Of a DNA stretch of 64,000 nucleotides, positions 15,801 to 64,000 are shown one piece after another. The translations under genes and the position numbers were made by a program. The notes under the pieces are model-generated. The model searched no databases. It was not told where the DNA came from and saw nothing but the letters and a program-made list of their open reading frames with translations. This DNA is from Haliotis asinina (taxonomy: Eukaryota; Mollusca; Gastropoda; Lepetellida; Haliotidae), in NCBI RefSeq assembly GCF_037392515.1, contig NC_090280.1, positions 20,708,618-20,772,617 on the forward strand, in the 5' to 3' direction. Position 1 is the stretch's first letter; the number at the start of each line of letters is the position of its first letter.

Positions 15801-18800
15801 ATCACCTTAGGCCTGCGACTGCTGTAGGCATATGTGAAGGTATGGGGGTTACAAGCACCTTAGGCCTGCAACTGTTGTAGGCATATGTTAAGGTATGGGG
15901 GTTACAAGCACCTTAGGCCTGCAACTGTTGTAGGCATATGTTAAGGTATAGGGGTTACAAGCACCTTAGGCCTGCGACTGTTGTAGGCATATGTTAAGGT
16001 ATGGGGGTTACAAGCACCTTAGGCCTGCGACTGTTGTAGGCATATGTTAAGGTATGGGGGTTACAAGCACCTTAGGCCTGCGACTGTTGTAGGCATATGT
16101 TAAGGTATGGAGGTTACAAGCGCCTTAGGCCTGCGACTGTTGTAGGCATATGTTAAAGTATGGAGGTTACGATCACCTTAGGCCTGCGACTGTTCTAGGA
16201 TATGTTAAGGTATGGAGGTTACGATCACCTTAGGCCTGCAACTGCTGTAGGCATATGTTAAGGTATGGGGGTTACAAGCACCTTAGGCCTGCGACTGTTG
16301 TAGGCATATGTTAAGGTATGGAGGTTACAAGCGCCTTAGGCCTGCGACTGTTCTAAGTGTGGGCATACGATCACCTAGTGCTGCAACTGCTTCATGTTAA
16401 AGTCTCAGAGTTTTGATCACCTTAGTGCTACAACCATCACAGGTTTGATTCAAGGTATGGTGTAGTAGTACTGCCATCACAATGAGCTCACTATAACTGC
16501 AGTTGACACTGTAGTCCAGTTTTGCTTCATTAATCATTTCAGATTGTTTTCTGAAAACAAAATACATGACTATGTTCACACATACACTTGAGCAGAATTC
16601 ATCCAACAAAGATACAAACACAAAGACATGATTAGAACAAAGTTGTTTTAGCTCCAGTTAGATCATTTAGTTGCATAACTCTAGAAGACCATAGAAGAGA
16701 ACAGGTGTCACAAGTGCACCTTCACTCTGCAAATTATACTAGCCTAGCAATTAAAAATGAAAATAATTTAGTTACATAGTAAACAGATAACAAAAAAACT
16801 AGAAAAGGACAGGTGCTAGAAGTTCACTGTGACTCACAGCAATAATACTAGTGCTTAAGAATGAAAGAGCACTTGTTAGTGTGTTTTGTCTCACTGAGAT
16901 AACCTATGTGGTGTTTCACAGTTCTATTGTTCTGATGACGCCATCAAAGAGTTCATGATCAATTTGTCTTGTCATCATGACAAAGCCATGTGTGACATTA
17001 CATTTGTCTTATTTTGATTCCTTATCAGTTGAAGTAGCAACATTTTATATTCAACTTAATATTATTTGCGTATATTACTTGTTGTATTTTGCCATAAGAT
17101 TTTGATTGAAATATGTCAGTAGAATTTCTAATTTCAGCTTTGTCATTCCCTTGTATAACACTAATCATGTTCCTTTCGCAATCAGATGCTTTGTCACTCA
17201 CATGAGCAATCTAGGGCATGTACCAAGAGCTTTCATTGAGCAAGTATTAGATCCTCATAATGAACCCTTGTTGTGATTGTTGTTAGGCCAAGAGAATGCA
17301 TTATCAAAGTTCAATTCAGCATCTGTTTCAACTGACCCATATCAAAAGTCTAAATTATCATGTTGCAATTATTTGTAATTGATGTTATTATCACTGGAAA
17401 TGTGTTGAGAGCTTCTTTCTTGTCAAAGCAGTATGAACACATTTGGCAGGTGCTTTATTCAAGAAAATTAAGCACATATTGTTCACAACTTGAGCAACTA
17501 ATCACTTTTATCACTGAATGACAATGGGACAAAACTATATATCATCCCAGCCTGGCTTCCATAGGAGATATTATATAACAGTGCTTTGAAGAGCATTGTG
17601 ATGTCGTTGGTTACTGTGACTACGCAGTCAAGTGTTATCACTGTTCTCTCTGCTATCAAGGCTGAATAGCTGTACTGTTTACACTCAGTATGCTGGTTAT
17701 TACTGCTTCTAAATGAACATGTCCGGAAGAATGATTTGGGATGAAAAGTAGATCAGGCAATATGTTCATTGTCAGTTCATGCTGCAGTTCCATTCTCATT
17801 TATGCAAAGGCAGGTTGGTTGATTTATTACTGAATGCCGCACTCAGCAATATTCCAGCAATGTGGCAGTGGTCTGTAAATAAACCAATAATCCAGTGATC
17901 GACATCATGAGCATTGATCTGCACAACTGGGATATGATCGCATGTGTCAGCAAGCCTGACCAGCTTTCACTAACCATGAGACCTGTGAATATCCAGGTTA
18001 GACTGAGTTGTAACCAACGCATACTTAACTTGAGACCACTAATGGGATCAGGTGATCAGACACACTGACTTGATTGACGCATGTCATATCCCAAGTGGAT
18101 TGATGCTCATGATATCCTTCACTGGGTTGTCTGGTCCAGACTCATTTATTTACTGACCACTGCAGGAATATTGCAGGGTATAGTGTTAATCGACAAACAA
18201 ACATGTCAAAACAACAATGCATACATGTGGGAAGGTGAATGAAAACAATGAAAAGAACGATGAACAATGTGTTTGATAGGAAGAACGACAAAATGCTTCT
18301 CTTGGCTTCATTTTGCATGATGTTCACCACATCATTATAGAAAATACAACCAATGTTTCAGTATATTGCATGTATTTTCACTTTATAATTGTACGTTCTG
18401 GATATGCAAGTGAAGCAGATCTTATGATATTATCTGTTCAACTAATTATATTGTGATGTATATACCCTTATGACTTTCATTTATTCAAATAACGTGTAAA
18501 AGCCTCCACAAAATGATAAAATATAGTTCAGTTTACATCTTATGGCTTTTTATCTTAATAGTGATAAAAATGTTTCTGTCTATAAAGAAGTCAACGTCTT
18601 TTATCATTACAGAAGATATTATTATAAATTCTGTGTGAATAACTTTGCATTTTCAGAAGATATAGGACATGCTTTTTAACGATGTGTGTTTAATCTAACC
18701 ATAGTAACCTACTCACATGTGTGATGTGTGTGTGACGTGGCACCCTCTGCTTACAGACAGAGGAAATCCCCGTTCCACCTCCAGAAGAGGAGAAACAGGA

Positions 18801-20487
18801 AGATGAACTAGATATAGATCTCAATGACCCAGAGGTTGAGAAAGCAGCGACCAAAATCCAGGCCTCATTCAAAGGCCATAAGGCTCGTAAGGAGGTGCGG
18901 GCCCTGAAGGTAGGTGACTGTGGTGAGCTGCTTTGGCTGTTCGTTTCAGTGTCACTAACTCACTAATGATCACTTGACTTCATATGGGTCTGTAGTTATC
19001 AGTCAGACATTTGTAATACCCAACAAGTGGAATGTGTGAAGCAGCAGGGAAAGCAGAGGGTCAGTAAGGATCTAATTTTAGTTGTCAACAACAGATGATC
19101 CATATGTGAGAGTCCCAATTTTGCCCAAGCTATGATCCTTTCAGAGTCAGCACCATCCTTGCAGGTTTCAGGAAAGTGGTGAATATCACCACTGAGGATT
19201 TTACTCCCCTACTAATCCATGCCATGACTCACACTCTTACTGTGTATGCTTGTATTCCAGGGTGAGGAAGAGGCTTCACCAGCAGCTGCTGAGGCCAAAC
19301 CAGAGGAAGAGGAGATCGATATAGATCTGGAGGATCCCCAGACCGAGAAAGCTGCTGTTATGATTCAGGCACAGTTCCGGGGATTCAAAACCCGCAAGGA
19401 CATGACCAATAATAAATCAGGTAGGCAAGCCCTCCTGTTGTCAGATGAAGTACACACAATGAGGTGTTCAGTATGTCAGCAGGATGGAGGTGCAGCCTAG
19501 TGGCTACAGCATCCGCTTGTGGTAACAACTTAACACACACTCTCTGATACCTGTGACAGTACTGAAATAGAGGGGAGGTGGGGTGGACAAGTGGTTAAAG
19601 CATTCACTTTTCATGCTGACATCACTTTGCCACTGTATGGGACTATTCAAATCCCTGCTGGGAACTGTTTGAAAACTTAGTCGCCTGCACCCTTATCCTG
19701 CAGTGAAAGGCAACACATGCAATGGTCAGTTGTGATAGTGTCTTTGGTTGTAATATAAATCACTGGGCTGTCAGTTCAAGAGTTGTTTCTGAGCCAACAT
19801 CATATTGCTTGAATATTGCTCAATGAAACAAGTAAACTACCCATGAAGATCCGGGTTAGAATTGATCTTCAGTAACCGATGCTTGTCGTATGAGACAATT
19901 AACGGGATTGGACATTCAGCCTTATTGACTTGGTTGACACATGTCATTGTATTCCGGTTTCATAGATCGATATTTATGCTGTTGATCACTGAATTGTCTT
20001 GTCCAGACATGATTATTTACAGACCTCTGTCATATAGCTGGAATATTGCTGAGTGTATTGACAAACAAACAAGAACACGATAACAACCTTGTTGGTAGTC
20101 TAACATTGTGTTAACATCAAAAGTTTTCATCTAATGTCAGAAACCACCACAGAGGCTGCCCCAGAAGAAAGCAAGCAAGAGGAGGAGGAGGAGATTGATA
20201 TCGATCTCACTGATCCTGAGGTCGAGAAGGCAGCTGTGAAGATTCAGTCCGGCTTCAAAGGATTCAAGGCTCGCAAGGAGATGAAGGCCTCAGGAGGAAC
20301 TTCTCCCACCAAATCTGAGAATGAAGAACCAAAGCAGGAGGCAAAGACAGAAGAGGAAGAGGAGGTAGACATTGATCTGGATGATCCTGAAGTGGAAAAG
20401 GCAGCTCTGAAGATTCAGGCTGGATTCAAGGGATTCAAAGCCAGGAAGGATATGAGTGAAAGCAAGAAGGAAGATGACCAGCAATAA
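7337..20487 (+). CDS. Multi-IQ calmodulin-binding protein, igloo/PEP-19-like (whole gene, 8 coding exons)
   Basis: Joining 7337-7351, 8134-8283, 10155-10310, 11887-12042, 14857-15069, 18757-18909, 19261-19420 and 20141-20487 gives one open frame of about 450 residues (MADFE...KKEDDQQ). It holds eight copies of a module of about 50 residues: an acidic stretch, a core like [20 protein letters not shown], then the IQ motif IQxxF[RK]GxxxRK. IQ motifs bind calmodulin, usually the calcium-free form. The acidic-DIDL-plus-IQ layout is that of PEP-19, neurogranin/neuromodulin and Drosophila igloo, which buffer calmodulin in neurons. All donors and acceptors are GT/AG; the first six joins are phase 0 and the last is phase 1, and all are consistent. 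No enzymatic domain, signal peptide or membrane segment is seen. The family call rests on motif recognition; a neuronal role is inferred. Confidence 0.85.
7427..7575. repeat. 61-bp tandem repeat, 2.3 copies
   Basis: CTGATTGTGGATTTGATGAA recurs at 7430, 7491 and 7552 with the following bases nearly identical. It lies in the first intron. Confidence 0.9.
8134..8283 (+). CDS. IQ gene exon 2, IQ repeat 1
   Basis: 150 bp, phase 0 at both ends. Acceptor AACTAACAG ends at 8133; donor GTTTGT at 8284. It encodes an acidic linker, [16 protein letters not shown] and [14 protein letters not shown], a textbook IQ motif. Confidence 0.88.
8428..8520. repeat. 32-bp tandem repeat, 3 copies
   Basis: AACGATGTCAGGATTGTTTT with its flank repeats at about 8429, 8461 and 8493, with one C/A change in the third copy. 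Confidence 0.9.
8936..9102 (+). mobile_element. SINE, family A (intronic)
   Basis: Head GGGGCAGCCTTGTGGTGAAA, weakened B box, shortened body, intact GGAATATTGCTAAAAGCAGC tail plus CTCACTCACTCACT. Sense to the host gene. Confidence 0.85.
10155..10310 (+). CDS. IQ gene exon 3, IQ repeat 2
   Basis: 156 bp, phase 0 at both ends. Acceptor TTCAAAACAG, donor GTTTGA. It encodes [20 protein letters not shown] and [14 protein letters not shown]. If the intron is retained, translation stops after one extra codon (GTT TGA). Confidence 0.88.
10311..11886 (+). other. IQ gene intron 3
   Basis: AT-rich. Several segments near 10520, 10790, 10930 and 11060 share a decayed TAGTTTAGTTTTTAGTT-like motif, perhaps an old tandem duplication. 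No extra IQ exon seen. Confidence 0.5.
11887..12042 (+). CDS. IQ gene exon 4, IQ repeat 3
   Basis: 156 bp, phase 0 at both ends. Acceptor CATCTAG, donor GTTTGA. It encodes [20 protein letters not shown] and [14 protein letters not shown]. The length and the donor match exon 3, which supports exon duplication. Confidence 0.88.
12795..12829. repeat. (GAT)n microsatellite
   Basis: About eleven uninterrupted GAT units in the intron after exon 4. On the other strand it reads as a poly-His ORF, which is not a gene. Confidence 0.95.
13056..13289 (+). mobile_element. SINE, family B (intronic)
   Basis: Nearly full length from ACCCATGAAGATCC to a decayed tail. Confidence 0.85.
13682..13942 (+). mobile_element. 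SINE, family B (intronic)
   Basis: Well preserved, ending in a run of CACT units. A short internal duplication of a CGACTGTACC/GGTGACTATA segment lies near 13720-13745. Confidence 0.88.
14659..14829 (+). mobile_element. SINE, family A (intronic)
   Basis: Head GGGGTAGTCTAGTGGTTAAA, B box lost, body ATTTCTGGTGTCCCC, decayed tail. It ends about 25 bp before the exon 5 acceptor. Confidence 0.8.
14857..15069 (+). CDS. IQ gene exon 5, IQ repeat 4 with Glu-Ala expansion
   Basis: 213 bp, phase 0 at both ends, donor GTTTGA. The acceptor is an ambiguous CAGCAG: splicing after the first CAG (start 14851) would add two Gln codons. The exon is about 57 bp longer than its sisters because of a GAGGCT hexamer run at about 14898-14940 that encodes (EA)n. 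It then encodes [20 protein letters not shown] and [14 protein letters not shown]. Confidence 0.87.
15320..16370. repeat. 53-bp minisatellite, about 20 copies
   Basis: The unit starts GGCCTGCGACTGTTGTAGGC and continues ATATGTTAAGGTATGGGGGT-TACAAGCACCTTA; starts at 15541 and 15594 give the 53-bp period. Copies vary at a few sites (GATCACC/AAGCACC, TTGTAGGC/TTCTAGGG) in a higher-order pattern. It sits in the intron between exons 5 and 6. Confidence 0.96.
16371..17826 (+). other. IQ gene intron 5, remainder
   Basis: No exon-like DIDL/IQ module or other structure recognised. Confidence 0.45.
17831..17985 (-). mobile_element. SINE, family B (intronic)
   Basis: Reverse copy, tail-first: CCGCACTCAGCAATATTCCA then GTGGTCTGTAAATAA and AACTGGGATATGATCGCATG. 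It faces the next copy, about 30 bp away. Confidence 0.8.
18013..18180 (+). mobile_element. SINE, family B (intronic)
   Basis: Forward copy, 5'-truncated and missing part of the 3' region (CACTGCAGGAATATTGC). With its left neighbour it forms a tail-out inverted pair. Confidence 0.78.
18757..18909 (+). CDS. IQ gene exon 6, IQ repeat 5
   Basis: 153 bp, phase 0 at both ends. Acceptor CTGCTTACAG, donor GTAGGT. It encodes a Pro/Glu linker, [18 protein letters not shown] and [14 protein letters not shown]. Confidence 0.9.
19261..19420 (+). CDS. IQ gene exon 7, IQ repeat 6
   Basis: 160 bp; acceptor TGTATTCCAG, donor GTAGGC at 19421. Phase 0 start, phase 1 end. It encodes [19 protein letters not shown] and [14 protein letters not shown]. 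The last base G joins the AA of exon 8 to make a Glu codon. Confidence 0.9.
19571..19670 (+). mobile_element. SINE family A, degenerate head
   Basis: GGTGGGGTGGACAAGTGGTTAAAGCATTC resembles the tRNA-like head; the rest is decayed. A second head fragment (GCAGCCTAGTGGCTACAGCA) lies at 19489-19521. Confidence 0.6.
19690..19836 (+). repeat. Dispersed repeat linked to SINE family B
   Basis: GCAATGGTCAGTTGTGATAG-TGTCTTTGGTTGTAAT and the segment down to GAATATTGCT recur at about 48150-48283. In both places the segment abuts the 5' end of a family B SINE, so it may be part of a longer composite element. Confidence 0.6.
19837..20060 (+). mobile_element. SINE, family B (intronic)
   Basis: Well preserved from CCATGAAGATCCGGGTTAGA through ATAGCTGGAATATTGCTGAG. 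It lies 80 bp before exon 8. Confidence 0.85.
20141..20487 (+). CDS. IQ gene exon 8 (terminal), IQ repeats 7 and 8
   Basis: Acceptor CTAATGTCAG ends at 20140; stop TAA at 20485-20487. It encodes two modules without an intron between them: [19 protein letters not shown] with [14 protein letters not shown], and [19 protein letters not shown] with [14 protein letters not shown], ending KKEDDQQ. An ATG at 20134 lies just upstream, partly in the intron, and is not the start. The two modules are the most alike in the gene, so this is probably the youngest duplication. Confidence 0.93.
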
Positions 20488-25591: not shown

Positions 25592-26179
25592 TGAACTTCA
25601 CGGAAGCTGGGAGCCTATTTAGAGTATCCCTGACGGAAGCGAGTTTAGTATTCTGGTTATTACTCGCCAACATAAATAGACAGAAACTGCTGCGAAATTG
25701 CCTACAGTGTGAGGACTCTCAGCTTTCCATGAGTCGAGCAAGGTCTAGTAATTGCGACAGCGACATAAGCATTGTGACATCACAACTCTGAACCATTTTG
25801 ACGTCACACGTCAAGCGGTATTACTGCCATAAAAATATTACACTGCAGTTTCTTCAACTTGCGAGGAATAAATGTTATAATAAATATATAAAATAGTGTT
25901 GGATTGTTTATTGGTTTAGATATGTACAGAGACATATTTTTATAAATGTATAGAATGTAAAGTATTACTTATAGCAGTGTGTAATTATTATAGATATATA
26001 GAAATTATTGTTTATGCATGGGAACAGTGACGAGGGTGGGGTTTTGTCTTTGATTGTTTTATGTACCATGCATTTGTAAGGTACACACCCTGATGTTTTG
26101 CTTGGGGAATTCAGTTTCCCAGTTGATTTTATGATGGGGATTAATCATAACGTGTTGGGATCCAATTTATCCACTGAAC

Positions 26180-27075
26180 TGAAATGTAATTTGGTGGTGA
26201 GATGGGGTGAAATGTAGTTTGGCAAGATGGGTGAAATGCACTTTGTTGGTGGGATGGGGTGAAATTTAGCTTGTGGGTGAAATGGAGTGAAATGTTGTTT
26301 GTTTGTGAGAGGGGTGAAATGTAGTTTCCTGAGATGGGGAGAAATGGAGGTTGTTGGTAAAATGGTGGAAAATGCACTTTGGTTGTGAAAGTGACATGCT
26401 GTTTGTCGTTGAGATGGGTGAAATGTAGGTTGTTGGTGAAATGGTGGAAAATGCACTTTGGTTGTGAAAGTGACATGCTGTTTGTCGTTGAGATGGGTGA
26501 AATGTAGGTTGTTGGTGAAATGGTGGAAAATGCACTTTGGTTGTGAAAGTGACATGCTGTTTGTCGTTGAGATGGGTGAAATGGTGGAAAATGCACTTTG
26601 GTTGTGAAAGTGACATGCTGTTTGTCGTTGAGATGGGTGAAATGTAGGTTGTTGGTGAAATGGTGGAAAATGCACTTTGGTTGTGAAAGAGACATGCTGC
26701 TTGTCGTTGAGATGGATGAAATGTAGGTTGTTGGTAAAATGGTGGAAATGCACTTTGGTTGTGAAAGAGACATGCTGTTCGTCGTTGAGTTGAGTGAAAT
26801 GGAGGTTGTTGGTGAAATGGTGGAAAATGCACTTTGGTTGTGAAAGAGACATGCTGTTCGTCGTTGAGTTGAGTGAAATGGAGGTTGTTGGTGAAATGGT
26901 GGAAAATGCACTTTGGTTGTGAAAGAGACATGCTGTTTGTCGTTGAGTCGGGTGAAATGGAGGTTGTTGGTAAAATGGGGTGAAATGCACTTTGGTTGTG
27001 AAAGTGACATGCTGTTTGTCGTTGAGATGGGTGTAATGTAGGGTGTTGGTGAAATGGGTTGAAATGCAATGAAAT
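26180..27075. repeat. 79-bp minisatellite block 2
   Basis: The unit GGTTGTGAAAGTGACATGCT... repeats every 79 bp (starts at 26381 and 26460), about ten copies with small variants. On the - strand the unit has no stop in any frame, so three overlapping ORFs of 267-352 codons appear. They are products of the repeat, not genes. Confidence 0.93.
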
Positions 27076-27762
27076 GCAATTATCATCATGTCTAAGATCA
27101 CTGCATTATCTTCAGCAACACATTTTTCGTCTGATGGTACCACTTTGGATAATACACAAGTTAGGATTCCAGCCCACTGAAATACCATGCTGGAGGTAGA
27201 CATGGATGGCCCACTCAGACACAGATACTGACACTAAATAACAATGCTCAATGCTGAACACCATGTTTTAACCTATTTGGTATGACCAGGACAAGGATCA
27301 AACCAGAAACTTCTGCTCTCCTGTCAGTCGCTGCACCCACTTTACCATGGAAACAGTCTTAGCAGTTGTTACACAAAATATGTGAATACTGATGTTTCAC
27401 TGGAATGGAGATAAGGCTTGAATATGATAAAGACGCCCTAAAGACCACTCAGTCGCACAACAGCCCCACCCTCAGAGACCACTATGATCCAAGATGCGAT
27501 TTTGTGTTCTTGCTTACCACACTCAACAGTAGTCCAAGTTTGTGACAGCGATCTCAAAATTTTCTACAGAAATAGATAGCACTAATCTAACCAGCCACTT
27601 TTGATTCGATGACATGTAAAGTCAGCGAACCTGAGCATCCAGTCCTGTAAGTGACTCAACAAGCATGGGTTTTGGACGGTGGTCAAACTGTTAGTATCTG
27701 GGCAACACTTATAATGGTATACTGGTAGCAAAATGCCACACACACCTAGAGGCCCGAGTGTG
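27076..27762. other. Noncoding stretch
   Basis: No supported gene or structure. Confidence 0.35.
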
Positions 27763-51611: not shown

Positions 51612-51833
51612 GAATAACTTGAGAGAGGTAGTCTGGTGGTTAAAGCGTTCTATTGTCTCGCCAATTCCAATGAGTACAATGTGTAAGACCTATTTTAGCA
51701 ATATTCCAGCAATATCACGGCGAGGGACACCAGAAATGGGCCTCACACATTGTACCCATGTTGGGAATCGAACCCGGGTCTTCGGCGTGACGAGCGAACG
51801 CTTCAACCATTAGGCTACCCCATCGCCCTCACC
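51612..51833. mobile_element. Inverted pair of truncated SINE family A copies at the duplication breakpoint
   Basis: A + strand head and body (51612-51689) is cut at the ACCTATTTT position and joined to a - strand copy (51690-51833) that starts in its tail at TAGCAATATTCCAGCAATAT. The junction coincides with the left edge of the 6.39-kb tandem duplication. Confidence 0.85.
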
Positions 51834-52170
51834 ACATCTGAGAAAGTGCAGTCCTACTATATAACACGTGTTGCAGTTCACTCCAGGTAGGATCGAGTAT
51901 TCACTGCTTTTGACATGGTCTCGACTACCTATACTTTATGCAGATGCTGATTTGGCTAAGTAGGTTAGTTGGCGATTTGGTTTGCTCAGAGCGTAGGTTT
52001 GATTCCCGGATTTTATTTATAGGAACCAAAGGCACCACTGTGAAAATCGGACTTCAAACCACCACGGTGTACTTTTCAAGAATGGCACGCATTTGCTGTT
52101 TGAAAATTCGATTGGACTGGAAATGAGAAGTAGAGAAACATACGGTCAGTCTTACATAACATAAACACTC

Positions 52171-52385
52171 GTGAAGATGCGGCTTGGAATTGATCATCAG
52201 CAACCCATTCAAGTCAGAGGAGGTAAATAAATGGATCGGATGGTCCAGCTCACTGACTTGGTTGACAGATATCATCGTATCCCAGAGTATATAGATGCTC
52301 ATGATGTTGATCACTGGATTGTCACGTCCAGACGTGCACATCTACATATAGCTGTAATATTACAGAGACCGGCGTTAAACACCGA
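52171..52385 (+). mobile_element. SINE family B variant (copy 1)
   Basis: GTGAAGATGCGGCTTGGAAT to ACAGAGACCGGCGTTAAACA. It is diverged from the others (GACAGATATCATCGTATCCC). The same insertion is in copy 2, so it predates the duplication. Confidence 0.8.
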
Positions 52386-52649
52386 ATAAACCTAACACAG
52401 AATGTGAGAGAGCAAGGCAGTAACTTTTGAGATTTGAGAATATTTTACGAACGATTCCGAACCTTCTGCGCACACATGTGGCTGGACAAATACAGATCTT
52501 TTTTTTATTGTTTTTAAATCTGACAAACTCGACATTTGCACAGTTATAATGAGACTTCCTTACACTCTGGAAGTCACAAACCTAGGTGGTGTAGCTAGTC
52601 ATCCTGCATATTCTAAACTACTAGTTGCCCGTCTTCTATTTGTCGGGAA

Positions 52650-52737
52650 GCCGCACTGGTTGAGTGGCTTAAATTGCTGACTTTGTAAGCATGCAATTAG
52701 TTGCCTGACTACGAGAGTGTGTGTTCAAATCCCGTAC
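52650..52737 (+). repeat. Class II tRNA-like sequence
   Basis: An A-box-like TGGTTGAGTGGC, a long variable region and a B-box-like GTGTTCAAATCCC, with CCGCAC/GTACGG as a poor acceptor stem. Probably a relic of a tRNA-derived SINE; I would not call a working tRNA. The matching site in copy 2 (near 59035-59100) has lost the B box. Confidence 0.4.
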
Positions 52738-52922
52738 GGGACTCAACCCAACGAAAGCCTATGTACTTCACTGAGAAAACGTAACCCCAAATATAACTTC
52801 CTAATGAGCGCAGCGCAGCATAGCTGTTGAAGCGTTTGGGCAAAATTAGTGAATCGTTTGAACTCAGCTTTTTTTCATCGCTTTCTTTTCAACTTTTTAG
52901 GTTGGATTGGCATTTTTGATGA

Positions 52923-52928
52923 TTTATT
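52923..52928 (-). terminator. Candidate poly(A) signal for STAND-ankyrin copy 1
   Basis: AATAAA on the - strand, about 330 bp past the stop codon. The equivalent in copy 2 is at about 59277-59282. Confidence 0.45.
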
Positions 52929-53139
52929 TCAGAATCTGCAAAGTTGTGTTTACGTTGCATGTGACCTTTAAGTGTCATTTAGATGCTGGGATCATTAGGA
53001 GGAACACTCTGTATGGACAGAAAACTACTTTGTTGCAACTAATGCGATGTTTCAGTATAGGTCTTTACACCGTTATAAAACAAATGCTGCACAACACATG
53101 CACAAGGTGCAACAAATACATGGCTGGTATTTGAGTTTA

Positions 53140-53330
53140 TACAAATACCACCTCTGCAGTGCTGGGTGCCTTCTATAATTATATACAGTTTCGGGCTTCT
53201 TATTAAACAGACACCACCTCTGCAGTGCTGGGTGCCTTCTTTGATTATGTACAGTTTCAGGGCTTCTCAATAAACAATGTCTGACACCACCCCCTCAGTG
53301 CTGGGTCACCTCTGTCATTCTCTACATTAG
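53140..53330. repeat. 66-bp repeats spanning the STAND-ankyrin stop codon
   Basis: The motif CAGTGCTGGGTGCCTTCT occurs at 53157 and 53223 (66 bp apart), and a third, diverged CAGTGCTGGGTCACC is at 53296 inside the coding end. The 3' end of the reading frame has been copied into the 3'UTR. Copy 2 shows the same at about 59510-59690. Confidence 0.85.
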
Positions 53331-56300
53331 CACTGGCACCATGGTCCAAGAGCAGAGCCAACAGCCGGCGGTAGACCTCTCCGTAGGAAGATGCTGTTGA
53401 AAAGGCCTCAATCTCTCTACCTTCCGGTGCCTTGCAGTCCAAAACGGAAACGTCCAGATCTTGGTTTAGCACTGCAGAATTTCTGGCAACCGAACACAGC
53501 AGGTGAAGTGGGGTGTTGCCTGTAGCGTCCCTGCTCAATACATCAGCGCCGTGTCCAATCAGAGTAGCACATGTCCCAACATCAGGCACTTGACTAAAGC
53601 ACAACACAACCTGATGGCACAAGGCAGTGTGTAATGGGGTCCGACCTTGGCCATTTCTTACATTTACATCAGCTCCTTTCTCCAAAAGCGCATCAACAAT
53701 ATCTTTGAATCCCCTCGCTGCTGCATAATGCAGAGATGTGTTGCCTTCGTGATTCTGTCTGTTCACGTCAGCCTGCGCCTTGAGTAGAAGGTCAACACAC
53801 TCCAAAGACATTCCCCAGTCTCCAGTCTCAAACGTCCTATTGTCTTTCACATAAGCCCTTTGGTGGTATTTATGAAGGCCCGTCCAACTTTCCCTTGCTG
53901 GCAGTATATCAAGACTCCATTTCGAACCCCTTCCCGATGCTATGTGAAGTGGCGTATCACCGTTTTTATTTTGTATATTCACATCACATCCACTCTTCAG
54001 CAAGACTCCAAAGAATGTCTTCGACACGCCCCAAGCTTCCAAAAGACATATATTTACGCCAGTGTAATCCTTTGCCAATTCTTCTGCAAGTTCTCTTTTC
54101 CTCTGTTCCGCATTGCTGCTAGTTCCATCTTGAAATAACACATCAGCACCAACATCATCACCGACATCATCTCCAGATCCAAGGGCACCTGCTGTATACA
54201 CTTGACTTCCGCTTAAACTAAGTGAGATGTTGTGGTACGACACCTCGACTCCCTGATACCGAGATCCTACAATCAACATTATATGGAGCAATGTGTCGCC
54301 GTTACTGTTCTGTACATTCACATCAGCTCCAGCCTGTATGAATTTTTTGACAGTGTCAGTTGAGCCACGGGCTGCTGCTGTCAACAAGGGTGTCTCACCT
54401 TGGCGGTTGCGCAGATTTATGTCTGCTCCGGCCTTTAACAATTTATCCACACCTGCTCCAACAAGAATGGACAAACGACTTATGTGAAGTGGAGTATTTC
54501 CATCATCGTCTTGTGCATTCACATCAGCACCACTATTTATCACTGCATCGACTGTCGATGGAAGCGAGAAAAGCATGATCGCTGCATGTAGAGGTGTACG
54601 CCCTCTGTTATTTCGTGCGTTAACAGAAAGTCCAGCTTTAATTAACACATATACACACTCTTCACTCCCACCATGAACAACTGCGAAAATAGATGTCTCC
54701 CCTTCATCATTGCACAGATTCACATCTGCTCCGTGTTTGAGCAAATGTTCTAGACAGTCTTTCGACTTCTTTTGTGCTGCTTTGTGAAGTGCTGTGGATC
54801 CTTTTCCATTCCGTGCATTCACATCAGCCCCTGCCTCTATCAACATGCTCATACATTTTGTTTCTCCATACAGCACAGCCATTTCCAAAAGGGGTTCATC
54901 TGTGGCCTTCGTTGTGTTTACCTTTGCTCCGGCCTCCAATAAACGTTTGACACACGACTCTTTATGACCATCCTTTATTGCAAAATGAAGTGGAGTCCAA
55001 CCATCAGTATTATCTACACTGACGTCAGCTCCAGCCTTTATCAACATTTCAATGTAGTCATGTCTTCCCATGTGAGCTGCATCATGTAAAGGAGTGTTAC
55101 CCTTTTCATCCTGACTGTTCACATCAGCCCCTGCCGTCAGCAACATCTCAACGTAAACTTTAGACCTCCAGCGTATGGCTGTATTCAGTGGCGTCTCCTT
55201 ATCAACATCCTGTATGTTCACATCGGATCCAGCATCCAGTAGTAATGTGACGCAGTCTTCAAATCCCAGTCTAACTGCCCTATGTACCGCTGTACAGCCA
55301 TTGGTGTTGTAGATGTTTGTATCAGCTCCAGCCTTCAGGAGCTTGGCTACACATTCATGAGCCCCAAGCTCCGTTGCAATATAGAGTGGTGTTTCACCTG
55401 TATTATTCTGGGCATTGACGTCAGCACTGGCCTTCAGTAGGGCATCCACACAGTCATCAGATCCTGTATCTACGGCTATATGGAGCGGAGTGCTGCCTGC
55501 TTCGTTCCGTACATTGACATCGGTAGCCTTCATCAAAATGGCAGCACATTGACGAGATCCACATCTGACTGATCTGTGAAGAGGTTTCTCACCTGCCTGG
55601 TTAGTTATATTACCATCAGCTCCTGACTTCACTAGGGCATCAACGCACTCCTCAAATCCACATTCTGCTGCAAGGTGGAGGGGAGTGTCGCCCTTTTCAT
55701 TCCGCAGATTCACAACAGCTCCGGCCTCAATGAGCACTTCCACACATGGCCTTGATCCTCGCCATGCTGCTCTGTGTAGGGGTGTATCGGACATGTTGTT
55801 TGCTACATTCACATCAAAGCCAGATTTGGTCATCACATCTTTCCGTCCAGTCTCTCCACTTGACATCCGTCTACAGTTACCCCCAATTTGACAGACTGCA
55901 CCTGTTCTGTCAATAAGGAACTCTAACAATTCAGGCTTTCCTGCATCAGCCGCAGAATGAAAAGGCGTGTCACCACTAGACGAAACCATGGCCATGTGTG
56001 CACCTTTCTGAAATAGGAACTTCACAGTTTCCATGTCCCCACCTTTACAGGCTGAGTGGAGAGGGCTGTTTCCATCCAGAGACAACATGTTAACTGAAGC
56101 GCCCTTTTCAAACAGAATCTGTACGAGAGACAGGTTTCCACTTTGACATGCACTGCACACGACATCCCCAGACACAAGAGCCCCCTTGTCTTGCAGCAAC
56201 GTTATCAACTCCTCTCTGCCACTTCTGCATGCCAGATGCAGCGGAGATTCCCCAAATGCGTCTGTGACATTGACATCTACCTCTCCATCAGTAACAACTG

Positions 56301-57881
56301 CAGCAGCAGCGGTATGACCGTATTCACACAAGTAATGCAAGACAGTTTTCCCCCAGCGGTCAGACGTAAATAAGTCAGGTCCGGTGGATAGAATCTGCAT
56401 AACAAAGTCAGTGTCCTTTGTTTCTGCGGCTATCATTAAGGGTGTTTTTCTGGCAGTTCCATATGCAGTGTTTATGTCTATTGCCATACGTTTAGTCAAA
56501 TACGTCAAGACATGTCCAGCAGAATGCTTGCAGACACCAAACAAAAGTTCACTTATTTGTTCTCGACTTAGAGCAATGTTGCCTTCCTCCATAAAATAGC
56601 GAAGCACATTTGAGGACTTGCTGCTGGGAAGTAATTCCAGGAAAGAATCCCCTGATATGTGATCGGTGAATGTGATGAGATCATTCAGACATATTGGATG
56701 ATCCCTTGTCAGAATATCCATGAATGTTTGAACAAACTCAACATCTCCACATACTCTGTGAGACAGCACTAACACGAAGTTCCTGTTCATTATCTCAAAT
56801 GCAAATCTCTTGGCCAAATCTGAAACGTACAGTCTGGGAATATGTGCCAGCAACCCCGTCTCGCTATCAGTACTGGCTGTTTGGGCAGTTTCAAGACGCA
56901 GTCTTTGATGAATGAATGCCAAACTGCAGTTGGTAATGACAAATCGGGTGTGTTTTCTGCTGAGAATAAAAGCAACACTATCGTAGATGGAAGGGTGGTC
57001 GAAAGTGTACATGTCCTCTTCCCTTTTGATATACGATCCAAGCAGATCTTCTGCAGCTGTTAAACACTCATAGCCAAGGTCCTCATCAGCATGAAACTCA
57101 TTTTCAGACACTTTCCCATCACCTTTGATCATCATCATGAACACCTTACGCTTTATGCTATCGTTAATCAGTTTGTTCATTGTCTGGTTCAGAAAATCGA
57201 GAGGTCTGCTGAAGAATTCCTTCATTGAAATCTGACTGTCGTTGTTGTATGCTCTGAGAAACATTCTACAAACATGAGGAAATCCGTGTGGGCAGTCGAT
57301 ATAATAGCACTGTTCTACTGTTTCCTTATCAAAATGTAAGCCTTGAGCCAATGCTTTCCAAATTTGTTTCTTCTCTTCCACCTTTCTCTCCGATGATACC
57401 TCGATCACGTACTCGCTGCTGGTGATGAATGTAGCGAGTCTTCCCAAGTCGGGTACAGATGATTGCAGAACATAATCACGCCCAACAAGAATTATTGTCA
57501 GCGTCCTACATTGTTGCCCATCCTCATGTTCCTTGTAGTGCTCCACTGGGTCCAGAATTGGACGCAACAGCGGCCTCCACCTAGACCATTCCAAAATGCT
57601 AAATTCCAAGTCTCCCAATATGTCGTCCAGCATTAGAAGGGGACTGGAACAGGTCATAGTGACCTCAGAAAACTCTGCTGGGGACTCCACCTGGAAGACT
57701 TGTCTCCCTTTGATGTGCTGATCTTTGAGAGCCATGTAAGCCATTGTCGACTTTCCTTCTCCAGGGCTTCCCTTTATGGTTATCCAACTGGCACCTTTGT
57801 CGAGTCTATCTGTCACCTTCTTGAGATCTTCCGTTTTCACCATATCTTCTGTCCAAATCTGAATCCTTGTTTCGGTTCTTT
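53257..57881 (-). CDS. STAND P-loop NTPase (nSTAND3-like) with ~26 ankyrin repeats, copy 1
   Basis: One exon of over 4.6 kb ending at TGA (53257-53259). Counting from the Met at 57843 (1,528 residues): Walker A GSPGEGKST at 25-33, Walker B LLMLDD at 69-74, sensor-1-like ILVGRD ending near 123, a GFPH motif at 187-190 in the GxP position of STAND proteins, and a winged-helix-like FDHPSIYDS at about 281-289. These fit the nSTAND3 family, signalling ATPases that switch state on ligand binding. Ankyrin repeats (xTPLHxAAxxG...LLxxGADVNxxNxxG) run from about 465 to the end, two with long insertions. The frame stays open upstream of that Met (GTETRIQIWTED-like), and TATGTTGCAG at 57882 looks like a 3' splice site, so the true N-terminus is in an unseen upstream exon. 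Ligand sensing and immunity are inferred from family, not shown. Confidence 0.88.
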
Positions 57882-57892
57882 CTGCAACATAA

Positions 57893-58017
57893 TGGAAGTT
57901 TGGGTAATCTAGTAGTTAAAGGTTTACAATCCGGGTTCAATACCACACAAGGGTACAACATATGAAGCCCATAAAACATTGTTAAAAGCGGTGTAACACT
58001 AAGGTCACTCACTTCTG
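57893..58017 (+). mobile_element. SINE family A (internal deletion) next to the STAND exon acceptor
   Basis: TTTGGGTAATCTAGTAGTTA, GGGTTCAATACC, then a shortened body to AAAGCGGTGTAACACTAAGG-TCACTCACTTC. Antisense to the gene; its head begins about 11 bp from the acceptor, so the branch-site region of that splice site is SINE-derived. Confidence 0.82.
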
Positions 58018-58558
58018 GAATATATAGTGGAATTACGTTATATGTCTGGGTTCATACATCAAATTCTCCTGTGGGGGCTGACTATTTTAGCAATATTCCA
58101 GCAATATCACGGCGAGGGACACCAGAAATGGGCTTCACACATTGTACCCATGTTGTGAATCGAACCCGGGTCTTCGGCGTGACGAGCGAACGCTTCAACC
58201 ATTAGGCTACCCCATCGCCCTCACCACATCTGAGAAAGTGCAGTCCTACTATATAACACATGTTGCAGTTCACTCCAGGTAGGATCGAGTATTCACTGCT
58301 TTTGACATGGTCTCGACTACCTATACTCTATTTGCTGATTTGGCTAAGCTGGTTTGTTGGCGATTTGGTTTGCTCAGAGCGTAGGTTTGATTCCCGGATT
58401 TTATTTATAGGAACCAAAGGCACCACTGTGAAAATCGGACTTCAAACCACCACGGTGTACTTTTTAAGAATGGCACACATTTGCTGTTTGAAAATTCGAT
58501 TGGACTGGAAATGAGAAGTAGAGAAACATACGGTCAGTCTTACATAACATAAACACTC

Positions 58559-58772
58559 GTGAAGATGCGGCTTGGAATTGATCATCAGCAACCCATTCAA
58601 GTCAGAGGAGGTAAATAAATGGATCGGATGGTCCAGCTCACTGACTTGGTTGACAGATATCATCGTATCCCAGAGTATATAGATGCTCATGATGTTGATC
58701 ACTGGATTGTCACGTCCAGACGTGCACATCTACATATAGCTGTAATATTACAGAGACCGGCGTTAAACACCG
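58559..58772 (+). mobile_element. SINE family B variant (copy 2)
   Basis: The copy-2 counterpart of 52171-52385, nearly identical. Confidence 0.8.
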
Positions 58773-59623
58773 AATAAACCTAACACAGAATGTGAGAGAG
58801 CAAGGCAGTAACTTTTGAGATTTGAGAATATTTTACGAACGATTCCGAACCTTCTGCGCACACATGTGGCTGGACAGATACAGATCTTTTTCTATTGTTT
58901 TTAAATCTGACAAACTCGACATTTGCACAGTTATAATGAGACTTCCTTACACTCTGGAAGTCACAAACCTAGGTGGTGTAGCTAGTCATCCTGTATATTC
59001 TAAACTACTAGTTGCCCGTCTTCTATTTGTCGGGAAGCCTCAGTGGCTGAGTGGGTTAAATGGATGGTTTTGTGAGCATGCAATTAGTTGCAATTTGTTG
59101 CAACCCAACAAAAGCTTCTGTACTTCACTGACCAAACGTAACCCCAAATATAACTTCCTAATGAGCGCAGCGCAAAACTGTTGAGGCGCTTGGGCAAAAT
59201 TAGTGAATCGTTTGAACTCAGCTTTTTTTCATCGCTTTCTTTTCAACTTTTTAGGTTGAACTGGCATTTTTGATGATTTATTTCAGAATCTGCAAAGTTG
59301 CGTTTACGTTGCATATGGCGTTTAAGTGTCATTTAGAAGCTGGGAGCATTAGGAGGAACACTTTGTATGGACAGACAACTTCTTTGTTGCAACTGATGCG
59401 TTGTTTCAGTATAGGTCTCAATAGTAACAGTATAGGTTATCATAAAACAAATGATGCACAACACATGCACAAGGTGCAACATATACATGGCTGGTATTTG
59501 AGTTTATACAAATACCACCTCTGCGGTGCTGCGCGCCTTCTATAATTATGTACAGTTTCGGGCTTCTTATTAAACAGACACCACCTCTGCAGTGCTGGGT
59601 GCCTTCTTTGATTATGTACAGCT

Positions 59624-62600
59624 TCAGGGCTTCTCAATAAGTAATGTCTGACACCAGCCCCTCAGTGCTGGGTCACCTCTGTCATTCTCTACATTAGCAC
59701 TGGCACCATGGTCCAAGAGCAGAGCCAACAACCGGCGGTAGACTTCTTTGAAGGAACATGCTGTTGAAAAGGCCTCAATCTCTCTACCTTCCGGTGCCTT
59801 ACAGTCCAAAACGGAGACGTCCAGATCTTGGTTTAGCACTGCAGAATTTCTGGCAACCGAACACAGCAGGTGAAGTGGGATGTTGCCTGTAGCGTCCCTG
59901 CTCAATACATCAGCGCCGTGTCCAATCAGAGTAGCACATATCCCAACATCAGGCACTTGACTAAAGCACAACACATCCTGATGGCACAAGGCAGTGTGTA
60001 ATGGGGTCCGACCTTGGCCATTTCTTACATTTACATCAGCTCCTTTCTCCAAAAGCGCATCAACAATATCTTTGAATCCCCTCGCTGCTGCATGATGCAG
60101 AGATGTGTTGCCTTCGTGATTCTGTCTGTTCACGTCAGCCTGCGCCTTGAGTAGAAGGTCAACGCACTCCAAAGACATTCCCCAGTCTCCAGTCTCAAAC
60201 GTCCTATTGTCTTTCACATAAGCCCTTTGGTGGTATTTATGAAGGCCCGTCCAACTTTCCCTTGCTGGCAGTATATCAAGACTCCATTTCGAACCCCTTC
60301 CCGATGCTATGTGAAGTGGCGTATCACCGTTTTTATTTTGTATATTCACATCACATCCACTCTTCAGCAAGACTCCAAAGAATGTCTTCGACACGCCCCA
60401 AGCTTCCAAAAGACATATATTTACGCCAGTGTAATCCTTTGCCAATTCTTCTGCAAGTTCTCTTTTCCTCTGTTCCGCATTGCTGCTAGTTCCATCTTGA
60501 AATAACACATCAGCACCAACATCATCACCGACATCATCTCCAGATCCAAGGGCACCTGCTGTATACACTTGACTTCCGCTTAAACTAAGTGAGATGTTGT
60601 GGTACGACACCTCGACTCCCTGATACCGAGATCCTACAATCAACATTATATGGAGCAATGTGTCGCCGTTACTGTTCTGTACATTCATATCAGCTCCAGC
60701 CTGTATGAATTTTTTGACAGTGTCAGTTGAGCCACGGGCTGCTGCTGTCAACAAGGGTGTCTCACGTTGGTGATTGCGCAGATTTATGTCTGCTCCGGCC
60801 TTTAACAATTTATCCACACCTGCTCCAACAGGCGTGAACAAACAACTTGCGTGAAGTGGAGTATTTCCATCATCGTCCTGTGCATTCACATCAGCACCAC
60901 TATTTATCACTGCATCGGCTGTCGATGGAAACAAGAGAAGCATGATCGTTGAATGTAGAGGTGTACGCCCTCTGTTATTTCGTGCGTTAACAGAAAGTCC
61001 AGCTTTAATTAACACATATACGCACTCTTCACTCCCACCATGAACAACTGCGAAAATAGATGTCTCCCCTTCATCATTGCACAGATTCACATCTGCTCCG
61101 TGTTTGAGCAAAAGTTCTAGACAGTCTTTCGACTTCTTTTGTGCTGCTTTGTGAAGTGCTGTGGATCCTTTTCCATTCCGTGCATTCACATCAGCCCCTG
61201 CCTCTATCAACATGCTCATACATTTTGTTTCTCCATACCGCACAGCCATTTCCAAAAGGGCTTCATCTGTGGCCTTCGTTGTGTTTACCTTTGCTCCGGC
61301 CTCCAATAAACGTTTGACACACGACTCTTTATGACCATCCTTTATTGCAAAATGAAGTGGAGTCCAATCATCAGTATTATCTACACTGACGTCAGCTCCA
61401 GCCTTAATCAACATTTCAATGTAGTCATGTCTTCCCATGTGAGCTGCATCATGTAAAGGAGTGTTACCCTTTTCATCCTGACTGTTCACATCAGCCCCTG
61501 CCGTCAGCAACATCTCAACGTAAACTTTAGACCTCCAGCGTATGGCTGTATTCAGTGGCGTCTCCTTATCAACATCCTGTATGTTCACATCGGATCCAGC
61601 ATCCAGTAGTAATGTGACGCAGTCTTCAAATCCCAGTCTAACTGCCCTATGTACCGCTGTACAGCCATTGGTGTTGTAGATGTTTGCATCAGCTCCAGCC
61701 TTCAGGAGCTTGGCTACACATTCATGAGCCCCAAGCTCCGTTGCAATATAGAGTGGTGTTTCACCTGTGTTATTCTGGACATTGACGTCAGCACTGGCCT
61801 TCAGTAGGGCATCCACACAGTCATCAGACCCTGTATCTACGGCTATATGGAGTGGAGTGCTGCCTGCTTCGTTCCGTACATTGACATCGGTAGCCTTCAT
61901 CAAAATGGTAGCACATTGACGAGATCCACATCTGACTGATCTGTGAAGAGGTTTCTCACCTGCCTGGTTAGTTATATTACCATCAGCTCCTGACTTCACT
62001 AGGGCATCAACGCACTCCTCAAATCCACATTCTGCTGTAAGGTGGAGGGGAGTGTCGCCCTTTTCATTCTGCACATTCACAACAGCTCCGGCCTCAATGA
62101 GCACTTCCACACATGGCCTTGATCCTCGCCATGCTGCTCTGTGTAGGGGTGTTTCGGACATTTTGTTTGCTACATTCACATCAAAGCCAGATTTGGTCAT
62201 CACAGCTTTCCGTCCAGTCTCTCCACTTGACATCTGTCTACAGTTACCCCCAATTTGACAGACTGCACCTGTTCTGTCAATAAGGAACTCTAACAATTCA
62301 GGCTTTCCTGCATCAGCCGCAGAATGAAAAGGCGTGTCACCACTAGACGAAACCATGGCCATGTGTGCACCTTTCTGAAATAGGAACTTCACAGTTTCCA
62401 TGTCCCCACCTTTACAGGCTGAGTGGAGAGGGCTGTTTCCATCCAGAGACAACATGTTGACTAAAGCGCCTTTTTCAAACAGAATCTGTACGAGAGACAG
62501 GTTTCCACTTTGACATGCACTGCACACGACATCCCCAGACACAAGAGCCCCCTTGTCTTGCAGCAACGTTATCAACTCCTCTCTGCCACTTCTGCATGCC

Positions 62601-64000
62601 AGATACAGCGGAGATTCCCCAAATGCGTCTGTGACATTGACATCTACCTCTCCATCAGTAACAACTGCAGCAGCAGCGGTATGACCGTATTCACACAAGT
62701 AATGCAAGACAGTTTTCCCCCAGCGGTCAGACGTAAATAAGTCAGGTCCGGCAGATAGAATCTGCATAACAAAGTCAGTGTCCTTTGTTTCTGCGGCTAT
62801 CATTAAGGGTGTTTTTCTGGCAGTTCCATATGCAGTGTTTATGTCTATTGCCATGTGTTTAGTCAAATACGTCAAGACATGTCCAGCAGAATGCTTGCAG
62901 ACACCAAACAAAAGTTCACTTATTTGTTCTCGACTTAGAGAAATGTTGCCTTCCTCCATAAAATAGCGAAGCACATTTGAGGACTTGCTGCTGGGAAGTA
63001 TTTCCAGGAAAGAATCCCCTGATATGTGATCGGTGAATGTGATGAGATCATTCAGACATATTGGATGATCCCTTGTCAGAATATCCATGAATGTTTGAAC
63101 AAACTCAACATCTCCACATACTCTGTGAGACAGCACTAACACGAAGTTCCTGTTCATTATCTCAAATGCAAATCTCTTGGCCAAATCAGAAACGTACAGT
63201 CTGGGAATATGTGCTAGCAACCCCGTCTCGCTATCAGTACTGGCTGTTTGGGCAGTTTCAAGACGCAGTCTTTGATGAATGAATGCCAAACTGCAGTTGG
63301 TAATAACAAATCGGGTGTGTTTTCTGCTGAGAATAAAAGCAACACTATCGTAGATGGAAGGGTGGTCGAAAGTGTACATGTCCTCTTCCCTTTTGATATA
63401 CGATCCAAGCAGATCTTCTGCAGCTGTTAAACACTCATAGCCAAGGTCCTCATCAGCATGAAACTCATTTTCAGACACTTTCCCATCACCTTTGATCATC
63501 ATCATGAACACCTTACGCTTTATGCTATCGTTAATCAGTTTGTTCATTGTCTGGTTCAGAAAATCGAGAGGTTTGCTGAAGAATTCCTTCATTGAAATCT
63601 GACTGTCGTTGCTGTATGCTCTGAGAAACATTCTACAAACATGAGGAAATCCGTGTGGGCAGTCGATATAATAGCACTGTTCTACTGTTTCCTTATCAAA
63701 ATGTAAGCCTTGAGCCAGTGCTTTCCAAATTTGTTTCTTCTCTTCCACCTTTCTCTCCGATGATACCTCAATCACGTACTCGCTGCTGGTGATGAATGTA
63801 GCGAGTCTTCCCAAGTCGGGTACAGATGATTGCAGAACATAATCACGCCCAACAAGAATTATTGTCAGCGTCCTACATTGTTGCCCATCCTCATGTTCCT
63901 TGTAGTGCTCCACTGGGTCCAGAATTGGACGCAACAGCGGCCTCCACCTAGACCATTCCAAAATGCTAAATTCCAAGTCTCCCAATATGTCGTCCAGCAT
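59624..64000 (-). CDS. STAND P-loop NTPase with ~26 ankyrin repeats, copy 2 (5' end outside window)
   Basis: Open to the window edge; the visible part is 1,458 codons and aligns from residue 71 of copy 1 to the same C-terminus without gaps. The Walker A motif lies beyond 64000; Walker B (LDDILGD), VGRDYVL, GFPH and FDHPSIYDS are all present and unchanged. By eye about 44 residues differ from copy 1. Only two of those fall in the first roughly 330 residues (N to S at copy-1 residue 200, R to K at 213); the rest are in or next to the ankyrin array. No stop or frameshift is seen, so both copies look usable. Confidence 0.9.
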   Translation of the reverse strand: MLDDILGDLEFSILEWSRWRPLLRPILDPVEHYKEHEDGQQCRTLTIILVGRDYVLQSSVPDLGRLATFITSSEYVIEVSSERKVEEKKQIWKALAQGLHFDKETVEQCYYIDCPHGFPHVCRMFLRAYSNDSQISMKEFFSKPLDFLNQTMNKLINDSIKRKVFMMMIKGDGKVSENEFHADEDLGYECLTAAEDLLGSYIKREEDMYTFDHPSIYDSVAFILSRKHTRFVITNCSLAFIHQRLRLETAQTASTDSETGLLAHIPRLYVSDLAKRFAFEIMNRNFVLVLSHRVCGDVEFVQTFMDILTRDHPICLNDLITFTDHISGDSFLEILPSSKSSNVLRYFMEEGNISLSREQISELLFGVCKHSAGHVLTYLTKHMAIDINTAYGTARKTPLMIAAETKDTDFVMQILSAGPDLFTSDRWGKTVLHYLCEYGHTAAAAVVTDGEVDVNVTDAFGESPLYLACRSGREELITLLQDKGALVSGDVVCSACQSGNLSLVQILFEKGALVNMLSLDGNSPLHSACKGGDMETVKFLFQKGAHMAMVSSSGDTPFHSAADAGKPELLEFLIDRTGAVCQIGGNCRQMSSGETGRKAVMTKSGFDVNVANKMSETPLHRAAWRGSRPCVEVLIEAGAVVNVQNEKGDTPLHLTAECGFEECVDALVKSGADGNITNQAGEKPLHRSVRCGSRQCATILMKATDVNVRNEAGSTPLHIAVDTGSDDCVDALLKASADVNVQNNTGETPLYIATELGAHECVAKLLKAGADANIYNTNGCTAVHRAVRLGFEDCVTLLLDAGSDVNIQDVDKETPLNTAIRWRSKVYVEMLLTAGADVNSQDEKGNTPLHDAAHMGRHDYIEMLIKAGADVSVDNTDDWTPLHFAIKDGHKESCVKRLLEAGAKVNTTKATDEALLEMAVRYGETKCMSMLIEAGADVNARNGKGSTALHKAAQKKSKDCLELLLKHGADVNLCNDEGETSIFAVVHGGSEECVYVLIKAGLSVNARNNRGRTPLHSTIMLLLFPSTADAVINSGADVNAQDDDGNTPLHASCLFTPVGAGVDKLLKAGADINLRNHQRETPLLTAAARGSTDTVKKFIQAGADMNVQNSNGDTLLHIMLIVGSRYQGVEVSYHNISLSLSGSQVYTAGALGSGDDVGDDVGADVLFQDGTSSNAEQRKRELAEELAKDYTGVNICLLEAWGVSKTFFGVLLKSGCDVNIQNKNGDTPLHIASGRGSKWSLDILPARESWTGLHKYHQRAYVKDNRTFETGDWGMSLECVDLLLKAQADVNRQNHEGNTSLHHAAARGFKDIVDALLEKGADVNVRNGQGRTPLHTALCHQDVLCFSQVPDVGICATLIGHGADVLSRDATGNIPLHLLCSVARNSAVLNQDLDVSVLDCKAPEGREIEAFSTACSFKEVYRRLLALLLDHGASANVENDRGDPALRGWCQTLLIEKP

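Follow-up and report, generated by a model that had tools for sequence, protein, structure and literature searches.

A tandemly duplicated giant nSTAND3-ankyrin exon in Haliotis asinina, possibly served by a single first exon

Near the right end of a 64,000-nucleotide stretch of the Haliotis asinina genome (the window: contig NC_090280.1 of assembly GCF_037392515.1, positions 20,708,618 to 20,772,617, or G000:C1:20708618-20772617 in our numbering), a long coding unit occurs twice in a row. A first-pass annotation described this as a recent tandem duplication of the kind by which arrays of NLR-type receptors grow. The question here is what was duplicated, a gene or a part of one, and whether the similarity of the copies tells when it happened. 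We examined the window together with the following 39 kb of the same assembly (L009-L012).

Self-comparison gave a direct repeat of two units with a spacing of 6,354-6,392 bp. The units are 97.6% identical overall (151 of 6330 aligned bases differ, or 2.4%), their coding strand is minus, and Ns are absent across the duplicated region.

51690..58081, minus strand: duplicated unit, copy 1 (left), with clear homology to ~58057-58073 in the copy-versus-copy alignment
58082..64000, minus strand: the part of copy 2 inside the window, which continues to ~64426-64453 in the next 10 kb (L009)
58082..58225 (approximate), minus strand: tRNA-like SINE, 3'-truncated, with A and B boxes recognised by eye; its broken end is the left edge of the unit
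~51690-51833: the same SINE in copy 1, at the left edge of that copy

The tandem duplication itself stands, as two direct copies at 51690-~58073 and 58082-~64453, the second of which finishes past the window end. The copies do abut head to tail, as had been noted, but the join without any spacer is imperfect, since for about 9-23 bp at 58059-58081 the right end of copy 2 offers no clear counterpart.

The array had been expected to continue beyond the window. We found no third copy in the 39 kb to the right of the window or in its left 51.7 kb, and the genome searches turned up no near-identical copy beyond these two. A 601-bp piece of the 3' flank (52000-52600) was searched against the 1.14-Gb assembly, and 40 of the 2368 first-look candidates were scored. 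Among the 41 matches listed, full length was reached by the two window copies alone; the remaining ones were short stretches at 72-78% identity, in our view a dispersed repeat. With the initial 914 bp of the NTPase frame as query, the genome yielded 12 matches (counted as pieces), the window copies at 99-100% identity and the rest at 67-75%, so that only the two window copies among these 12 exceed 75% identity over this stretch.

The SINE at the unit edge belongs to an element that is frequent in the window (30 hits, including fragments and both unit copies), and it is shorter at its 3' end than the other copies when compared with the consensus tail. We considered unequal exchange between two SINEs as the origin of the duplication, as the left edge lies inside such an element, yet the SINE part of the unit has no match at the right end of copy 2, so this origin is not supported. 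Two abutting SINE pieces that face opposite ways make up a small inverted pair at the left edge of copy 1 (51627-51867). Rfam and tRNA scans of the whole window gave no hits. Elsewhere in the window we noted a tandem repeat with a 32-bp period and 100% identity (241-727), another with a 53-bp period and ~86-94% identity (15318-16352), a tandem array whose minus strand has three overlapping open frames of 267-362 aa (26144-27233), and two open stretches on the plus strand (19228-19497 and 20104-20484) of an acidic protein in which Pfam IQ marks calmodulin-binding motifs.

The coding part of each unit lies in one very long exon.

53257..57881, minus strand: giant terminal exon, copy 1, with acceptor TTGCAG/AA (AG at 57883-57882), phase 1
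59624..64000, minus strand: in-window part of the giant terminal exon, copy 2 (whole exon 59624-64248)
57355..57840, minus strand: nSTAND3 NTPase domain, copy 1 (Pfam residues 2-163; Walker A at residue 25, Walker B at residue 69)
53305..56457, minus strand: ~26 ankyrin repeats, copy 1 (residues ~463-1513)

After the acceptor, the copy 1 exon has 12 full codons and then ATG 57843 with 1,528 codons. This 1,528-codon frame is present on the minus strand in each copy (53257-57843 and 59624-64210), and both frames are intact, with no stop and no frameshift. A Pfam search, which the first-pass annotation had proposed as a check, bore out its domain call: nSTAND3 (PF20720) scored 56.0 bits in copy 1 against a gathering cut-off of 27.2 (E 4.8e-15). 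NB-ARC stayed at 15.4-18.4 bits, under its cut-off of 23.5, and NACHT was not listed among the Pfam matches. The in-window piece of copy 2 shows neither Walker A nor an nSTAND3 hit because the window cuts it at codon 71. In the next 10 kb copy 2 is complete, with Walker A present, its motifs intact and 97% protein identity to copy 1; Walker A (GSPGEGKS) and Walker B (LLMLDD) are kept in both copies. The description of each unit as an intact nSTAND3 domain plus about 26 ankyrin repeats in one exon thus applies to both copies, except that part of the copy 2 NTPase lies beyond the window.

An HMM built from copy 1's own repeats found 26 ankyrin matches in each copy. Several of the repeats are broken by in-frame inserts. 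We looked for hidden introns in these inserts (residues ~646-672, 1196-1279 and 1311-1347, and two more C-terminal ones), and since no GT-AG pair passed the filter we kept the giant frame as one exon. For the NTPase half, AlphaFold2 run from the single sequence gave a mean pLDDT of 36, and the top PDB sequence match was weak (E 0.35).

The exon has relatives. A search of the genome with the NTPase half, in which 89 of 110 candidates were scored, gave 75 matches (pieces) at E ≤0.001. Besides the window copies, there are at least 11 loci at 42-53% identity (main piece), plus more distant ones.

Close paralogs on C1: 35.16, 35.18, 35.30, 35.32, 36.10, 36.12, 39.15 and 92.87 Mb
Close paralogs on C4 and C10: C4 59.27 and 59.43 Mb; C10 26.56 Mb

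Six of these 11 close paralogs lie inside 1 Mb of C1, and the family has grown elsewhere in the genome. We fetched 12 exons, those of the 11 close paralogs and one at ~31% identity. A long open frame with 5-34 ankyrin matches was present in nine; among the other three, two stop early and one shifts frame near residue 147 (a frameshift or perhaps a small intron). All 12 NTPase regions that we aligned, from the two window copies and from 10 of the 12 fetched relatives, retain the P-loop, DDI, HGFP and FxHxS motifs; the alignment omits the relative that changes frame and one of the two that stop early. The GRD motif is lost in the most distant aligned member. Neighbouring same-strand nSTAND3-like matches, 1-5 kb apart, were seen on C6 (52336973-52338109 and 52342087-52342998, minus strand) and C13 (54854103-54855137 and 54855989-54857092, plus strand); these pairs may be further exon or gene duplications. 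A weak, short nSTAND3-like fragment at C1:35323636-35323818 (L050:4237-4419), possibly a relic of a second terminal exon, follows the NTPase match at C1:35319479-35320861 at a distance of ~2.8 kb; the stop of that frame lies ~1.3 kb before the fragment.

These relatives also tell how the exon is entered. The NTPase-half search provided 20 loci for comparison, two of which were omitted as second pieces of genes already counted. A phase-1 acceptor (CAG, two nucleotides, then the first full codon) stands at the same place in 18 of the remaining 18, that is, in the two window copies and 16 of 16 others. The first full codon after it is R, with W, K or Q in a few loci, and in close relatives a segment like RTxxRIQxWTxDMVxT follows the acceptor codon. 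The shared position of the acceptor means that an upstream exon leads into the giant exon, in phase 1. We scanned both strands of the 103 kb for a suitable one.

67779-67521 in window numbering (L009:4521-4779, outside the window), minus strand: proposed first exon, 86 acidic codons plus 1 nt, donor AAG/GTGAGT

This is the only ATG-started phase-1 exon of at least 40 codons with a 7/7 donor. Relaxing the donor to 6/7 adds three plus-strand candidates, and three on the minus strand that all fall inside the giant frames. The proposed exon sits 3.3 kb upstream of copy 2, the right copy, and a splice to either copy would yield an uninterrupted reading frame of 1,627 residues; the fusion of this exon with the start of copy 2 scores 58.2 bits for nSTAND3. 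The N-terminal stretch is acidic, with no Pfam domain above cut-off and no HEPN or death domain found; of the parts of an NLR-type layout (effector domain, NTPase and sensor repeats), the NTPase and the repeats are seen. We did not find a homologue of this exon in the paralog loci, scanned to at most ~1.5 kb upstream; two of the 15 scanned (L018 and L034) have a different open stretch of at least 30 codons before a good phase-1 donor. In the intron between the proposed exon and copy 2, the stretch 64644-65505 (L009:1644-2505) appears by eye to be a minisatellite with the repeated donor-like sequence GACGTGAGT, which accounts for five of the 14 listed donors of at least 5/7.

The donor/frame scan finds no coding first exon inside the unit, although it leaves room for a noncoding or weak-donor one. 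On present evidence the duplicated unit is therefore the terminal exon, bordered upstream by ~190-200 bp of intron and downstream by 1.57 kb of 3' flank. Duplication of a whole gene is not shown: the exon opens with a phase-1 acceptor and the fitting first exon was found once. Receptor-array growth is not supported at this locus either, with just two copies of a unit that does not contain the first exon found.

The age of the event has to be judged from the differences between the copies, which are unevenly spread (copy 1 coordinates).

51690-52499, outer 3' flank: 11/805 (1.4%)
52500-53256, inner 3' flank: 54/724 (7.5%)
53257-57843, exon from the ATG: 71/4587 (1.55%)
57844-57881: 1/38
57882-58057, upstream intron flank: 14/176 (8.0%)

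Near-identity had been reported over coding and noncoding parts alike, and the event had been called recent on that ground; the first does not hold as a general statement, and the second is not supported. Synonymous sites of the exon differ at 23 of 1044 (2.2%) and the two adjoining noncoding flanks at 68 of 900 (Fisher P = 2e-8), so divergence in the flanks is 3-4 times that at the synonymous sites of the exon. The outer and inner parts of the 3' flank differ from each other as well (P = 2e-9). Mismatches are clumped: the observed dispersion was matched in none of 5000 shuffles of the in-window alignment and in five of 5000 within the coding part, and a mismatch-free run of 524 bp, as seen here, was reached in one of 2000. 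The high-similarity block does not stop exactly at the stop codon, because the final 49 codons hold nine base differences. One recent event followed by even divergence is at odds with these data, and the divergence does not date the duplication because identity is so uneven between exon and flanks. What the blocks imply is either an older duplication later overwritten in part by gene conversion, or a mosaic origin through exchange between haplotypes that had diverged.

The reading that we prefer, at just under an even chance, is a two-exon nSTAND3-ankyrin gene in which the giant 3' exon was tandemly duplicated and the first exon was not, with the copies serving as alternative last exons after partial gene conversion. 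Transcription would run from right to left. The first exon (67779-67521) would splice in phase to the copy 2 exon (64248-59624), or alternatively skip it and join the copy 1 exon (57881-53257). Alternative use is likely because the first exon fits both in phase and each giant exon has its own stop and its own AATAAA (at 59282 and 52928, ~330-340 bp beyond the respective stops); a shared first exon, compatible phase, separate stops and poly(A) signals are all there, at the level of sequence. The predicted products are two proteins of 1,627 residues with the same N-terminus and NTPase-ankyrin parts that are 97% identical. After the duplication, the two exons would have been partly homogenised by gene conversion. 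STAND proteins act as nucleotide-driven oligomeric switches. Judging from this family, the protein, which resembles an intracellular receptor, most likely works as such a switch, in which the ankyrin array would bind a ligand, the NTPase would exchange nucleotide and oligomerisation would signal.

A broader version, which we consider somewhat unlikely, treats the locus as a cassette: one first exon and promoter would serve alternative giant terminal exons, each encoding an entire NTPase-ankyrin receptor body, which conversion keeps alike while short stretches such as residues 1087-1149 diverge. Since phase-1 entry was found in 18 of 18 loci, any exon of this type could come into use wherever it landed 3' of a phase-1 donor, which would make this a plug-in route to new STAND receptors.

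Slightly less likely again is an orphan copy 1, an unused exon whose duplication took along neither promoter nor first exon and whose frame is still open through youth or through conversion from copy 2. The scan found no first exon for copy 1, and the ratio of nonsynonymous to synonymous differences between the copies is neutral. There are 47 nonsynonymous and 23 synonymous in-window coding differences, where neutrality predicts a nonsynonymous mean of 50.0 (sd 3.8, P = 0.25); the absence of a stop between the copies has P = 0.15 under neutrality, and dN/dS over the whole exon is 0.60 (NG86) or 0.93 (YN00). We looked for purifying or positive selection and set both aside, as the ratio does not differ from the neutral expectation. 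There is thus no sign of constraint since the copies diverged, as expected if one of them is idle. Loss also seems common in the family, because three of the 12 fetched relatives have no single long frame as assembled. Against an idle copy, the frame, acceptor and AATAAA of copy 1 are all intact, and the exon has no indel compared with five in 1.53 kb of 3' flank, a difference that is clear per base (P = 0.001) and marginal per substitution (P = 0.058). The differences between the copies include one cluster.

54397..54585 (copy 2: 60764-60952), minus strand: copy 1 residues 1087-1149, with 17 of the 70 in-window coding differences

Fifteen of these 17 are nonsynonymous and two synonymous, but the region was picked post hoc and is only suggestive as a sign of selection. 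It covers two adjacent 34-residue ankyrin repeats, with many differences at repeat positions 10-17.

We think it improbable that these are two separate genes, such that copy 1 would be driven by a promoter of its own, with a short 5' exon lying in the 1.74 kb that separate the copy 2 stop from the copy 1 acceptor, and would start translation at ATG 57843. The nSTAND3 domain does begin directly after this ATG. In addition, a GTGAGT-type donor (GAAGTGAGT), which copy 2 has as well at 64380, precedes the acceptor by 130 bp at 58012 and would allow a separate noncoding first exon, and weaker donors in the 1.74 kb (most of them 4/7) follow open phase-1 frames of 20-45 codons. However, none of the three donors of at least 5/7 there closes an ATG-started phase-1 exon. 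The coding homology of close paralogs (RTxxRIQxWT) extends upstream of ATG 57843 to the acceptor, so a start at this ATG would drop a conserved segment. Of the intron that the donor at 58012 would create, ~80 of the 131 bp match SINE fragments, and the stretch differs by 8% between the copies.

An assembly artefact, with two alleles of one exon set head to tail, is a still less probable explanation. It is worth stating because heterozygosity of a marine mollusc can be ~3%, the figure given for pearl oyster in the cited passages of PMC9646362, and the overall divergence of 2.4% falls within that allelic range. Both edges are sharp, however, the outer flanks are not repeated where an extra haplotype piece would usually bring shared flanks, the sequence has no Ns, and the four-block mosaic includes blocks at 7.5-8%. 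Finally, a young whole-gene duplication within a growing array would account for tandem copies with intact frames, but with a third copy absent, no first exon found in the unit and noncoding flanks far more diverged than the exon, we regard it as hardly tenable.

The preferred reading of one gene with two giant last exons has partial parallels in known systems. The nSTAND3 domain occurs in bacterial Avs5 (cited passages of PMC12931631), which likewise has Walker A and B, downstream STAND-like motifs and a C-terminal repeat array. The repeats are ankyrin here and TPR or Sel1-like in Avs5, and our protein has just an acidic stretch in place of Sir2 or another recognised N-terminal domain. Molluscan NACHT/HEPN expansions, such as that described for Pinctada fucata in PMC9646362, are similar in combining an NTPase with repeats, in lineage expansion and in copy-number change; here the NTPase is nSTAND3 and not NACHT, no HEPN or death domain was found, and only the last exon is duplicated. 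Among candidate receptors that exon duplication and splicing have diversified, the brown algal ROCO genes (PMC11378527) and Dscam1 (PMC5465998), as far as the cited excerpts go, share exon duplication that feeds possible splice variants. In those genes many exons vary part of the protein, whereas here one 4.6-kb terminal exon holds the NTPase and the ankyrin array and the splicing is predicted. In the literature searched, nSTAND3 itself appeared in work on bacterial Avs5 and on mosquito viruses, no description of a giant-exon nSTAND3-ankyrin family was found under that name, and excerpts on alternative last exons or exon arrays in immune receptors showed nothing that we recognised as this arrangement.

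In bacteria as well as in animals, repeat-coupled STAND NTPases have roles in immunity and in cell death (cited passages of PMC12931631 and PMC8195603). A gastropod survey, in the excerpt used here, counts only four NACHT proteins in Aplysia, one of them NLR-like (PMC9334734), and for that reason we speculate that the nSTAND3 family could fill part of the NLR role. For this locus, the young gene array gives way to an exon-level model that can be tested. The 3-4 fold difference between exon and flanks also means that the raw identity of tandem receptor copies can mislead about their age. Beyond the locus, the analysis outlines a family of giant-exon nSTAND3-ankyrin genes, and if both exons are used here, one promoter would feed two receptor bodies.
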